Positions 3,494 through 41,178 of a DNA stretch of 41,178 bases are shown here, piece by piece. The notes under the pieces were generated by a model. The model did no database searches. It was not told the origin of the DNA and worked only from the letters and a program-made list of their open reading frames with translations. The first letter of the stretch is position 1, and every line of letters starts with the position of its first letter. The stretch spans positions 1 through 41,178 of the forward strand of contig JAAXXK010000021.1 of assembly GCA_013334525.1 (NCBI GenBank). The letters are read 5' to 3'. This DNA is from Chlorobiaceae bacterium (GTDB lineage Bacteria > Bacteroidota > Chlorobiia > Chlorobiales > Chlorobiaceae). The position numbers were made by a program, and so were the translations under genes.

Positions 3494-3566
3494 AGCGGGT
3501 GACGAGATTCGAACTCGCGACATTTTGCTTGGGAAGCAAACACTCTACCAACTGAGTTACACCCGC
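3494..3566 (-). tRNA. tRNA-Gly (anticodon CCC)
   Basis: A 73-base cloverleaf on the minus strand: acceptor GCGGGTG/CACCCGC, D arm ACTC/GAGT, anticodon stem TTTGC/GCAAA with loop TTCCCAA (anticodon CCC, reads GGG), T arm GCGAG/CTCGT with loop TTCGAAT, and discriminator T. The 3' CCA is not encoded. Confidence 0.95.
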
Positions 3567-3617
3567 TTGCGAAAAGCATCCCGCTCTCCTGAAAGTCAAG
3601 CGGGGTGTTGTAATGAG

Positions 3618-3691
3618 TGGTGAGAGAGGGAGTTGAACCCTCGACCTCAGGGTTATGAATCCTGTGCTCTAACCAACTGAGCTACCTCACC
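3618..3691 (-). tRNA. tRNA-Met (anticodon CAT)
   Basis: A 74-base cloverleaf on the minus strand: acceptor GGTGAGG/CTCTCACC region, D arm GCTC/GAGC, anticodon loop TTCATAA (CAT), T arm with TTCAACT loop, discriminator A. It is probably the elongator methionine tRNA, since the acceptor lacks the initiator-type C1 mismatch; a lysidine-modified tRNA-Ile2 cannot be excluded from sequence. The last pair of the anticodon stem is A-C rather than a Watson-Crick pair. CCA is not encoded. Confidence 0.92.
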
Positions 3692-36924: not shown

Positions 36925-37013
36925 GTGCCTCGAAGCATCTGTCGGGAGGGGCGAAAAATCTTTTCACGGCATTGCCGCGCGCCGAAAAAATCATTACACT
37001 TCAGGAGTTCTTT

Positions 37014-37262
37014 CTGCATTCCGGTGCCGGATGTTTTCATCCGGATAATAGGGAAGTACGTGCAACCCGTACACTGTGCCCGCAACTGTAGAACGGTTTG
37101 TCGTGCGGCTTTCTGGGCAGCTCTGCCCGTATCGCCGATGCGGCTTGATGTGCATGCACTTCGCTGACCTCATGAAAACCACGGGGAACGCGGGGGAAGG
37201 ATGCCTCACAAAGGAGCGTTGGATTGCAACGCAGCCGTTCAAAGTCAGGAAACCTGCCGGAA
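37014..37262 (+). promoter_or_regulatory. cobalamin riboswitch
   Basis: Core elements in order: GGTGCCGG, a small hairpin (CCGGATGTTTTCATCCGG), ATAATAGGGAA, the GTGCAACCC loop (L5), CTGTGCCCGCAACTGTA, then after about 100 bases CATGAAAACCACGGGG and CGGGGGAAGGATG, and finally the B12 box AGTCAGGAAACCTGCCGG (37243-37260). All are in the right order for an adenosylcobalamin riboswitch. The segment between the core and the second half is long, an expanded peripheral arm. No other gene lies between it and nrdJ, 250 bases downstream. Expression mechanism (terminator or ribosome-site control) is not clear: a hairpin at 37269-37300 lacks a T tract. Confidence 0.92.
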
Positions 37263-37372
37263 AAGATAGCGCCATTAGGCTTCGGGAAGAGAGCCTGGCG
37301 ACCTTGTCAACGACCGTTTCCTTATGCCTCATGATTTATTTTCATCTATTTGTTGAAGCTGTTTCCTGAGTA

Positions 37373-37400
37373 TTGCAGGGTGTTTATATTACGTTATAAA
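37373..37400 (+). promoter_or_regulatory. possible promoter between riboswitch and nrdJ
   Basis: TTGCAG (37373-37378), 16 bases, TATAAA (37395-37400). If used, nrdJ could be transcribed independently of the riboswitch. Weak evidence from consensus matching only. Confidence 0.3.
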
Positions 37401-37513
37401 TCTCCTCTGCTTCAGGTGTTTTGATATCCCGGATGAGTTCCGGCAAGGGGTAAGTCATACAAAATATTAGATTTACCTGACCACAACCATTTATCGATTT
37501 CGGAGAGCCCCCA

Positions 37514-40500
37514 ATGAAAATCGCCCGCCTGTTCACTTCGCCCGGTGAAAATGTCTACGATCGTTTCGAGTATACCCAGAGAACCTCTGTGCTTCGCAAT
37601 CCCGACGGATCGAAGGTGTTCGAGATGAACGATGTCGAGGTGCCGGTCACCTGGTCGCAGGTCGCCGCCGACATCCTCGCACAGAAATATTTCCGCAAGA
37701 CAGGCGTACCGCAGCGCGACGAGAACGGCGAAGTGGTTACCGACAGCGAAGGCCGCCCGGTGACCGGCAGCGAACACTCCATCAAGCAGGTGGTGCACCG
37801 CATGGTCGGCTGCTGGCAGGAGTGGGGCAAAAACTATAAATATTTCGATACCGCCGAAGACGCCCAGGCGTTCTACGACGAGGTCGCCTACATGCTGCTC
37901 GCGCAGATGGCCGCACCGAACTCCCCCCAGTGGTTCAACACCGGGCTCAAGTACGCCTACGGCATCAACGGCCCGGCACAGGGGCACTTCTATGTCGACC
38001 AGGAGTCTGGCGAAACCCGGGAGTCCGAAGACGCCTACTCACGCCCGCAGGCCCACGCCTGTTTCATCCAGTCCGTCAATGACGACCTGGTCAACGAAGG
38101 TGGCATTTTCGACCTCGCCATCCGTGAGGCAAGGGTTTTCAAGTTCGGCAGCGGATCGGGCACCAACTACTCCAACCTGAGGGGCTCTGGCGAAAAGCTC
38201 AGCGGCGGCGGAAGCTCCTCCGGCCTGATGAGCTTCCTGAAGATTTTCGACTCCGCGGCAGGTGCGATCAAGTCGGGCGGCACCACGCGGCGTGCGGCCA
38301 AGATGGTGATCATCGACATCGACCATCCCGACGTTGAAAAGTTCATCGAGTGGAAGGCGAAGGAGGAGGACAAGGTTGCCGCCATGGTCACCGGCTCCAA
38401 GATCTGTTCGCGTTTCCTCAAGGCCATCGTCGAAGAGGCGCTGGTCAACGGCACCGACCGCCAGGAGAACGAGGCGCTGAACAAGCTCATCCGCAACGCC
38501 CTGCATCGCGGCGTGCCGATGAACTACATCCTCCGGGTGCTCGCCCTGGTCGAACAGGGTTACACGACCCTCGACCTCGACGAATACGACACCCACTACG
38601 AATCCGAAGCCTACGCGACCGTCGGCGGCCAGAACTCGAACAACAGCGTCCGCGTGACCAACGAGTTCATGAAAGCCGTGCAGAACGACGACGTCTGGAT
38701 GCTGCGCGAACGCACTACCGGCAAGGATGCCAGGGCGGTTCGTGCTCGCGACCTCTGGGAGAAGATCGTCATGAGCGCCTGGAAATGCGCCGATCCAGGC
38801 CTCCAGTTCGATTCGACCATCAACGAGTGGCACACCTGCCCGAAGAGCGGCCGCATCAACGCGAGCAATCCGTGCGTGACGGCCGAGACTTTGGTTGCCA
38901 CCGACCGGGGGCTTGAGCGTATCGGTGAGCTTGTCGGACAGTCGAGAGGCATCAAGAGCATCGACGGCAAGATGCACTGGGTCGAAAAGATTTTCCCGAC
39001 CGGCACGAAACCGGTTTACGAACTTCGTACGAAAAGCGGTTACAGGCTGAAGCTAACCGGTGATCACCAGGTCTTTACTGAAAATCGCGGCGACGTCAAG
39101 GCTTGCGAATTGCGCAAAGATGATGTTGTTCGCCTTGTTGGTGCCGGGTTTGGTAAAGAAACCAGCGGTTCTTCCGAGACTGCCCAGCTCATTGGGTTGC
39201 TTGTCGGTGACGGATGCATTACCAGAACAGCCAACAGGGACGCTGCCGGAGAACAACGCCGGGTTGCGTTTCTTACCGTTGATAAAGCTGAAGTCGAGAT
39301 CGCTGGCTGGGCCAACGCTCATATCAACCAGATGCGTCCCGAACTTGGCGAGCACAATAAACAGGGTTCAGTCACAGAAACCGTGACAACTGCCCGCGTC
39401 GCTGTCGGCAGCCCTCGGATTTTGCACCAGCTCGAGACTTTTGCCGTGCTTGATCATGGAAGTGAAAACAAGGTGTTTACCGATGTTGCCTTTCGTCTTG
39501 AGCGTGCCGAGCAGGCGGCGTTGTTGCGGGGACTGTTCACTGCCGACGGGACGGTTGCGAACTACGGGGAGAAATCGCAGTACGTTGCCCTCGATTCCGT
39601 CTCGCTTGAACTGCTCAGCCAGGTACAGTTGCTGCTCCTGAATTTTGGCATCAAATCGAAAATCTACGAGAACCGCAGAGCCGGAGACCTTGTATCGCTG
39701 CTTCCCGACGGCAACGGCGGCAGGAAAGAGTATCCTGTCATGCAGATGCACACTCTGCGCATCAGCCGCAGTTCCAGGGTGCTCTTCGAAGAGCATATCG
39801 GATTCATGCCGGAGAGCAGGAAGTCGGAAGCGCTTGCTCTCCTGAACCAGACGGTTGGCGTCTATCATGATTCACTGACCGATACCGTGGCATCGCTCAC
39901 CGGTATGGGCGAGGAGCCTGTTTTTGACCTTACCGAGCAGGAGACCAGCCACTTCATTGCCAACGGTATCGGTGTGCACAATTGCAGCGAATACATGTTC
40001 CTCGACGACACGGCCTGCAACCTGGCCAGCGTCAACCTCGCGCACTTCCTTGACGAAGAGAGCGGCAAGATCAAGGTCGCCGAACTGATCCACGCCTCGG
40101 GCCTCTGGACCGTTGTGCTCGAAATCTCGGTGCTCATGGCGCACTTCCCGTCGAAGGAGATCGCCCGCCTGAGCTACGAGTTCAGGACGCTCGGCATCGG
40201 TTTCGCCAACCTCGGCCGCGTGCTGATGGTGCTCGGTATTCCGTACGATTCCCCGAGAGGCCTTGCCATCGCCGGCGGCATCGCTGCCGTCATGACCGGC
40301 CAGGCCTACGTCACCTCCGCCGAAATGGCGCGTGACCTCGGCACCTTCGCCCGCTACCGCGAGAACAGCGACGACATGCTCCGCGTCATCCGCAACCACA
40401 CCCGAGCAGCCCACAACAGCTCCGAAGAGGAGTACGAAGGCTTGGTGGTCAAGCCGCGCGGCATCGATTCCGAATACTGCCCGAAGGAGCTTTTCGAAGC

Positions 40501-41178
40501 TGCCGGAAAGGTATGGGACGAAGCGCTGAAGAAGGGCAAAAAGCACGGCTTCCGCAACGCGCAGGTCAGCGTGATCGCCCCGACCGGCACCATCGGGCTC
40601 GTCATGGATTGCGACACCACGGGCATCGAGCCTGAGTTCGCCATCGTCAAGTTCAAGAAGCTCGCCGGCGGCGGCTACTTCAAGATCGTCAACCAGTCGG
40701 TGCACAAGGCGCTCAACCGCCTCGGCTACAAGGAGTCGCAGGTCGAGGATATCGAGAGGTTCTGCAAAGGACACGGCACCCTCAGGGGGTGCCCCTCCAT
40801 CAACCAGCAGTGGCTCAAGAGCAGGGGATTCACCGACGACAAGATCGAAGCGGTCGAAAAGCAGCTCGAAGGGGTGTTCGACATCCGTTTCGCCTTCAAC
40901 AAGTGGATCATCGGCGAAGAGTTCTGCCACTCGCTCGGATTCAGCGAAGCTGACCTGAACGATCCCGGTTTCGACATGCTCCTGTCGCTCGGCGCCACGG
41001 AGAATGACATCGAAGCAGCCAACGACTACGTCTGCGGCACCATGACCATCGAAGGCGCCCCGCACCTCAAGGACGAGCACCTGCCGGTGTTCGACTGCGC
41101 CAGCACCTGCGGACGCAAAGGCCGCCGCTACATCAACCACATGGCCCACGTGCACATGATGTCGGCCGTGCAGCCCTT
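37514..41178 (+). CDS. nrdJ: adenosylcobalamin-dependent ribonucleotide reductase, with intein, partial
   Basis: Open frame from ATG 37514 (GGAG eight bases upstream) to the window end without a stop; C-terminus missing. Class II reductase, which makes deoxyribonucleotides using adenosylcobalamin to form a thiyl radical. N-extein is 453 residues and includes a typical AHACFIQ cysteine (C183, matching the first redox cysteine) and [16 protein letters not shown]. The catalytic motif [21 protein letters not shown] is split by an intein: NP ends the N-extein and C is the first C-extein residue. The C-extein continues with [20 protein letters not shown] and [11 protein letters not shown] and still lacks its end. 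Codon use in both exteins favours C/G-ending codons. Preceded by a cobalamin riboswitch. Confidence 0.95.
   Translation, partial: [1221 protein letters not shown]
38873..39982 (+). mobile_element. LAGLIDADG intein in NrdJ, 370 residues
   Basis: In-frame insertion of 370 codons. Splicing block A is [13 protein letters not shown] (Cys1), block B is LTGDHQVFT (TxxH), block F is [20 protein letters not shown] and block G ends VHN followed by Cys+1 of the C-extein. Two LAGLIDADG endonuclease motifs remain, LIGLLVGDG near 39190-39213 and [10 protein letters not shown] near 39523-39551, each with its acidic residue. Codon use shifts to T-ending codons (gtt, ctt, ggt) compared with the flanking exteins, suggesting recent transfer. 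It is a class 1 intein and looks able to splice and home. Confidence 0.93.

Follow-up and report, generated by a model that had tools for sequence, protein, structure and literature searches.

Cobalamin riboswitches usually repress genes of B12 synthesis, B12 uptake or B12-independent isozymes. In a Chlorobiaceae bacterium (assembly GCA_013334525.1), a 41,178-nucleotide (nt) stretch of contig JAAXXK010000021.1, hereafter the window, carries such a riboswitch before nrdJ, the gene of an adenosylcobalamin-dependent ribonucleotide reductase that is apparently essential and the only reductase of the organism. Why should a sensor of the cofactor precede the enzyme that depends on it, and in which direction would it act? 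We find that the riboswitch is genuine, that it is shared with many relatives, and that it lies between two promoter-like motifs, P1 adjoining its 5' side and P2 behind it. We give an even chance to a reading in which the riboswitch tunes only the nrdJ mRNA that starts at P1, downward with adenosylcobalamin, and P2 supplies a basal floor.

The riboswitch and the reductase behind it

The cobalamin riboswitch before nrdJ is confirmed as genuine (Table 1). The match covers all 189 positions of the Rfam model RF00174 and reaches 69.3 bits, where the gathering threshold is 31.5 bits, and the aptamer ends 238 nt before the nrdJ start codon. A sequence-only reading of this DNA, which had left the matter to a covariance search, had recognized the riboswitch core and the B12 box and had placed the start correctly to about 10 nt; the significant match bears it out. 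In a genome-wide search, the nrdJ-linked riboswitch was the sole cobalamin riboswitch of the assembly (G000; 79 contigs, 93.9% complete). The same reading had named the adenosylcobalamin-dependent reductase as the next gene on the strand, and rightly so: the nrdJ product carries the class II reductase N domain PF08471 (E 1.9e-41) and the barrel PF02867 (E 2.8e-107), and NCBIfam models of B12-dependent reductases also match it.

Apparently, nrdJ is the only reductase gene of this genome: searches of the 93.9% complete assembly for the class III domain PF13597 and for the class I small subunit PF00268 gave no match. Both are rare in relatives. PF13597 was seen in 10 of 98 class genomes and PF00268 in 6, all 6 from a single other family (f4), and among 21 genomes of the window's genus only one (G014) has either. 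No match to NrdR (TIGR00244), the repressor that commonly controls reductase genes, was seen in any of 21 genomes searched, which represent eight genera and include the window genome and none of the second genus considered below; the model was detected in 9 of 14 control genomes. An NrdR operator at P2 was rejected on the basis of this search.

The NrdJ intein comprises a splicing domain and a LAGLIDADG_3 endonuclease, and intein content may vary, as relatives have nrdJ open frames of about 1150 or about 1530 residues. In two 99% complete genomes (G012 and G013) no match to nrdJ, PF13597 or PF00268 was seen, and assembly gaps are likely there.

Conserved linkage and two promoter-like motifs

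In the class set of 98 genomes, 78 had nrdJ matches and 20 had none at E 1e-20. The DNA around 77 nrdJ starts was scanned with all Rfam models; two genomes gave two starts each, and genomes whose nrdJ start lay off the contig gave none. With the window included, RF00174 was found upstream on the same strand at 34 of 78 starts, namely 18 of 19 in the window's genus (absent in G009), 16 of 56 in a second genus and none of three in other families. One of the negative loci (L096) has only 351 nt of upstream DNA and cannot be judged. The distance from aptamer end to start codon is 201–250 nt in 32 of the 34, with 86 nt in G034 and 377 nt in G041. The sequence-only reading would have taken a lack of linkage in relatives, together with a sole nrdJ start behind the riboswitch, as a refutation; these counts show the linkage to be conserved.

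When presence and absence of the switch are mapped onto a tree built from the 5' 300 nt of nrdJ (76 of the 78 rows, two short ones omitted), 11 changes are needed, compared with 25 in shuffles. The 34 linked aptamers form one group against 31 other Chlorobia riboswitches, with a support of 86 in the Shimodaira–Hasegawa-like approximate likelihood ratio test (SH-aLRT), on a tree that omits 8 of 39 other loci as short or not placed and has long branches, including the one at which L002 and its neighbours join the side of the linked group. The simplest reading of these trees is a single origin of the linkage followed by repeated loss. As far as sequence comparison can tell, the linkage is old and switch and gene have been inherited together in green sulfur bacteria. 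Outside the class, a pattern of core plus box matched none of 60 nrdJ upstream regions of the same phylum, and divergent riboswitches could escape it; the pattern recovered every known riboswitch on which it was tried, 34 linked ones and 30 others. Among 25 further named loci (L186–L210), several of them nearly without upstream DNA, it flagged four, all from green sulfur bacteria. A relation between the switch and nrdD was considered and set aside, because only eight genomes of the two genera have both nrdD and an nrdJ start; the switch is absent in six (G021, G028, G029, G038, G042 and G076) and present in two (G014 and G026).

After the B12 box, the hairpin P13 is well kept too. The loop L5 (CCCG) and its complement L13 (CGGG) are both present in all 34 linked loci, as is a P13 inner stem of at least 5 pairs. 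Over 31 distinct P13 sequences, 92.8% of cells are paired and 17 cells have changed on both sides, compared with a shuffled mean of 4.7, a count in which three shorter-loop sequences are misaligned and partly scored as unpaired. The covariation signal is lost when the partner strand is slid. Based on the kissing-loop role described for L5 and L13 (PMC9600662), the two loops would be able to kiss in all 34 loci. A leader peptide at P13 was rejected, as a conserved start codon after P13 was not seen by eye. The stretch 3' of P13 appears poorly conserved by eye.

P1 and P2 are both conserved and may serve these bacteria as promoters. The P1 motif, TTG-N17-21-TTA(C/A)NNT, occurs at 32 of the 34 linked loci, where shuffles would give 1.15. 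The P2 motif, [TG]TATATT at −116 to −132 from the start codon, is present at 33 of the 34 linked loci and at 29 of the 44 unlinked ones, 62 of 78 overall, whereas shuffles gave about 1 and about 1.7 for the two sets and other upstream positions 0 or 1 of 75–78 loci per 65-nt bin. All these counts cover related, non-independent sequences and describe conservation rather than significance. The P2 motif is as well conserved as the switch itself. In the window it begins 84 nt after P13, within the interval 37373–37400 where the sequence-only reading had suspected a promoter that bypasses the switch. A generic sigma-70 scan of the region returned no promoter-like site and so missed both motifs. Transcripts from P2, if it is used, would lack the aptamer, so that the riboswitch could govern P1 transcripts only. 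Two natural deletions would fit P1 as a working nrdJ promoter. In G034, P2 and most of the leader are gone, and P1 and the riboswitch are kept 86 nt from the start codon; in G009, riboswitch and P2 are gone, and a P1-like TTG-N19-TTACTCT is kept at −139, before the nrdJ leader.

Table 1. Features of the nrdJ upstream region and gene, in window coordinates
Feature	Position	Strand	Evidence
P1, promoter-like TTG-N19-TTACACT adjoining the aptamer 5' side	36972–37000	+	motif conservation
Cobalamin riboswitch aptamer (RF00174)	37005–37275	+	covariance match 69.3 bits, E 3.4e-15, full model
L5 loop CCCG, kissing-loop partner	37079–37082	+	CCCGCNACTG in 34/34 linked loci
B12 box	37244–37258	+	sequence, inside RF00174 alignment
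P13 hairpin, L13 loop CGGG at 37283–37286, complementary to L5	37270–37300	+	inner stem of at least 5 pairs in 34/34; covariation
P2, −10-like TTATATT 3' of the riboswitch; possible −35-like stretch at about 37362–37366	37384–37390	+	conserved position
Conserved leader hairpin GGTAAGTC...GATTTACC between P2 and ribosome binding site	37449–37477	+	consensus fold, 15 sequences of the window's genus
Shine-Dalgarno GGAGA of nrdJ	37502–37506	+	sequence; conserved masking hairpin not seen
nrdJ, adenosylcobalamin-dependent ribonucleotide reductase, intein at about residues 454–823, runs past window end	37514–41176	+	PF08471, PF02867, PF14890, PF14528; NCBIfam

By eye, the leader hairpin is similar in loci without a riboswitch. 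Two tRNA genes lie at 3494–3691 (− strand) of the window.

Direction and read-out of the switch

We infer that the ligand is adenosylcobalamin, that binding turns expression off, that P1 and P2 are both used, and that P13 is the element through which the bound state is read out. The riboswitch would be transcribed from its own promoter P1, with the RNA beginning at about the first aptamer base, and P2 would drive nrdJ free of the riboswitch. When adenosylcobalamin is scarce, P1 transcripts would run into nrdJ and raise its expression, and more apoenzyme would catch the scarce cofactor. When it is plentiful, the aptamer would be bound, L5 and L13 would kiss, P13 would be locked and the P1-derived share would drop, with P2 holding the sole reductase at its basal level. 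P13 could be read out by RNA decay, by factor-dependent termination or, in the window's genus, by a weak terminator overlapping P2. OFF is the direction taken by default, as in established cases. An OFF switch on a lone reductase makes sense as compensation, with apoenzyme rising when the cofactor is short and P2 guarding the floor. In a reporter survey, 38 of 86 cobalamin riboswitch reporters, that of Veillonella parvula mutA among them, showed repression with corrinoid, a count that selects repressors and is not a test for activators (PMC9600662).

Several results weigh against this reading, most of them from the search for an expression platform, which established none. Predicted terminators were present in 37 of the 38 functional reporters of that survey (PMC9600662), and most nrdJ leaders lack one; cobalamin riboswitches of Chlorobi are described as acting mainly on translation (PMC8620254). 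Between P13 and P2, where the scan ended, hairpin-plus-T-tract scores equal those of shuffles (mean −1.17 vs −1.17 kcal/mol; 34 loci, 12 shuffles each), and an intrinsic terminator in this interval was rejected on that overall mean, weak T-tract stems in G019, G015 and G008 (about −5 kcal/mol) notwithstanding. A hairpin ending at the P2 box beats the shuffle mean in only 2 of 15 loci of the second genus. Over the 33 linked loci that have P2 (G034 has none), sequences near P2 did not pair with P13 better overall than shuffles did. An alternative helix, in which the 3' strand of P13 would pair just ahead of P2 and which by eye looks convincing in some species of the window's genus, was rejected for that reason. 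The Shine-Dalgarno sequence is alike accessible in the predicted P1 and P2 RNAs (0.32 vs 0.34, 33 loci), and its differential masking was therefore rejected too. Further, 44 of 78 nrdJ starts showed no switch, so that it is dispensable, and the deletions in G009 and G034 each come from a single metagenome assembly.

The P2 box itself gives a different picture in the window's genus. There, 14 of 18 loci (33 were tested over both genera) have a hairpin running up to the box whose predicted stability exceeds the shuffle mean; the average of the genus is about −5.6 compared with −2.7 in shuffles, and the hairpins of G019, G020 and G004 are stabler than all 20 shuffles. A simple terminator scan found one weak site on the + strand, 37364–37380, whose T-rich tail is the P2 box, among three sites over both strands (1.0 expected). 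It is possible that a terminator shares its tail with P2 in this genus only. TTATATT is read first as a promoter because it is kept also in loci without a riboswitch. A P2 hairpin specific to the P1 RNA was rejected as too weak (mean z of −1.2 over 33 loci with the riboswitch and of −0.7 over 29 without it).

Other Chlorobia leaders show a modest predicted contrast at the Shine-Dalgarno sequence. It is unpaired at an average of 0.38 in nrdJ leaders, with 13 of 34 below 0.3. In six btuB-like riboswitch leaders with a distant P13 (three of the six genes Pfam-confirmed as TonB-dependent receptors, the others assigned by sequence), it lies inside a hairpin at 0.20–0.38, and two nrdD leaders gave 0.40 and 0.01. 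A TATATT just before the gene was not seen in the six btuB-like leaders or the nrdD leaders; L278 has one 53 nt after the box.

A bolder version, unlikely though not negligible in our estimate, would see here a tandem device, in a lineage where NrdR was not found (0 of 21 genomes searched) and in a cell with a single reductase detected. DNA-precursor synthesis would be coupled to cofactor supply by an adenosylcobalamin-gated P1 stacked on a constitutive P2. The switch would be read out in an unusual way, giving ON or graded logic, perhaps through a noncoding RNA that contains the riboswitch, through interference with P2, or through a terminator that uses the P2 box as its T-tract.

It is unlikely, in our estimate, that P1 and the riboswitch form a separate unit that makes a noncoding RNA or acts by transcription through P2, with nrdJ mRNA arising mainly from P2. 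A P1 RNA shortened by the cofactor could then turn nrdJ on indirectly. The retention of P2 with and without the riboswitch, the dedicated P1 next to the aptamer, the poor conservation behind P13 and the hairpin with a T-rich tail that precedes or overlaps P2 in the window's genus all agree with such a unit. ON logic for B12-dependent pathways is described in Listeria, where the B12 riboswitches Rli55 and AspocR likewise stand beside genes of such pathways, are transcribed on their own and act through noncoding RNAs (PMC8079631). However, those RNAs are prematurely terminated and have identified targets, and neither a target nor a terminator before P2 better than shuffles was found here. Also, P1 appears to be the sole nrdJ promoter in G034, and 34 loci have kept the unit beside nrdJ, which points to action in cis.

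A direct ON switch, in which bound adenosylcobalamin would allow P1 transcripts to reach nrdJ or express it and the enzyme is made when its cofactor is present, has the physiological logic of a cofactor-dependent enzyme on its side, and we regard it as distinctly unlikely. We know of no direct cobalamin ON switch. The P13 3' strand can pair just before P2 in some species of the window's genus (best in G004 and G014), such that locking P13 could remove or permit downstream structure, but over all 33 loci this pairing does not exceed shuffles. In addition, the reporter counts of PMC9600662 give repression for 38 of 86 riboswitches, and activation is not reported with them.

The sequence-only reading had also considered a switch left behind by a lost gene. 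Such a relic, regulating nothing now, is very improbable and is disfavoured by an intact core, L5 and P13/L13 in 34 of 34 loci, by P1 in 32 of 34, by compensatory changes in P13 across two genera and by near-constant spacing. In its favour, 40 of 56 loci of the second genus showed no switch, and L13 (CUUCGGGAA) resembles by eye that of another Chlorobia riboswitch family (L271, L272, L275 and L023), which stands about 20 nt before a start codon; at nrdJ, a conserved start codon at that L13-proximal place was not seen. In L275 and L023 the frame at that start codon encodes a protein of about 100 residues (MKNNxA...ARAILQHRRP...DPFGYG) with no Pfam match, and in L272 a CbiM gene lies further downstream of the riboswitch.

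Repression of a B12-independent reductase, the arrangement known for nrdAB and nrdDG (PMC3848588; PMC545781) and suggested by coordinates for nrdD in Chlorobia genomes G028 and G029, is refuted here unless the gene is misidentified, since nrdJ is class II and B12-dependent and the genome search showed no class I or III reductase that isozyme switching could serve.

Known systems and what the locus may mean

The nrdJ riboswitch shares with the btuB and btuF types of RF00174 riboswitches, which use a P13/L13 platform, a full aptamer, a B12 box, a C-rich L5 and an L13 CGGG able to kiss. It differs in that P13 ends 213 nt before the start codon, a terminator is not established, masking of the Shine-Dalgarno sequence was not seen, and another promoter-like site, P2, separates the switch from the gene. 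The leaders of TonB receptor (btuB-like) genes in Chlorobia have a distant P13 too, but the six considered have a Shine-Dalgarno hairpin and no TATATT before the gene. We take mutA of V. parvula, from its name, to encode methylmalonyl-CoA mutase. Its riboswitch likewise stands before the gene of a B12-dependent enzyme and repressed a reporter (PMC9600662); the nrdJ case concerns a different enzyme in a different phylum. A B12 riboswitch before a B12-dependent enzyme gene thus already has one precedent. The sequence-only reading was right that the pairing is odd, and its judgement that repression there makes little sense was too strong.

Reductase control by cobalamin riboswitches is known from nrdDG in delta-proteobacteria (PMC545781) and from Propionibacterium acnes, where the switches annotated in PMC3848588 stand before the B12-independent nrdAB and nrdDG and not before nrdRJ. 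Here, in contrast, nrdJ, the sole reductase found, carries the switch. The P. acnes study also speculates on a promoter that yields a riboswitch-free nrdDG transcript (PMC3848588). In Chlorobium, cobalamin riboswitches have been listed before btuB, btuF, metE, nrdD and a hypothetical gene, and nrdJ does not appear in the main text of that study (PMC8620254). A riboswitch upstream of nrdJ was not named in any title or abstract of the open-access papers searched, a scope too narrow to establish priority.

The locus makes two questions testable. One is whether a cofactor-dependent essential enzyme is turned up or down when its cofactor runs short. The other is whether two stacked promoters may combine a regulated part of expression with a guaranteed floor.

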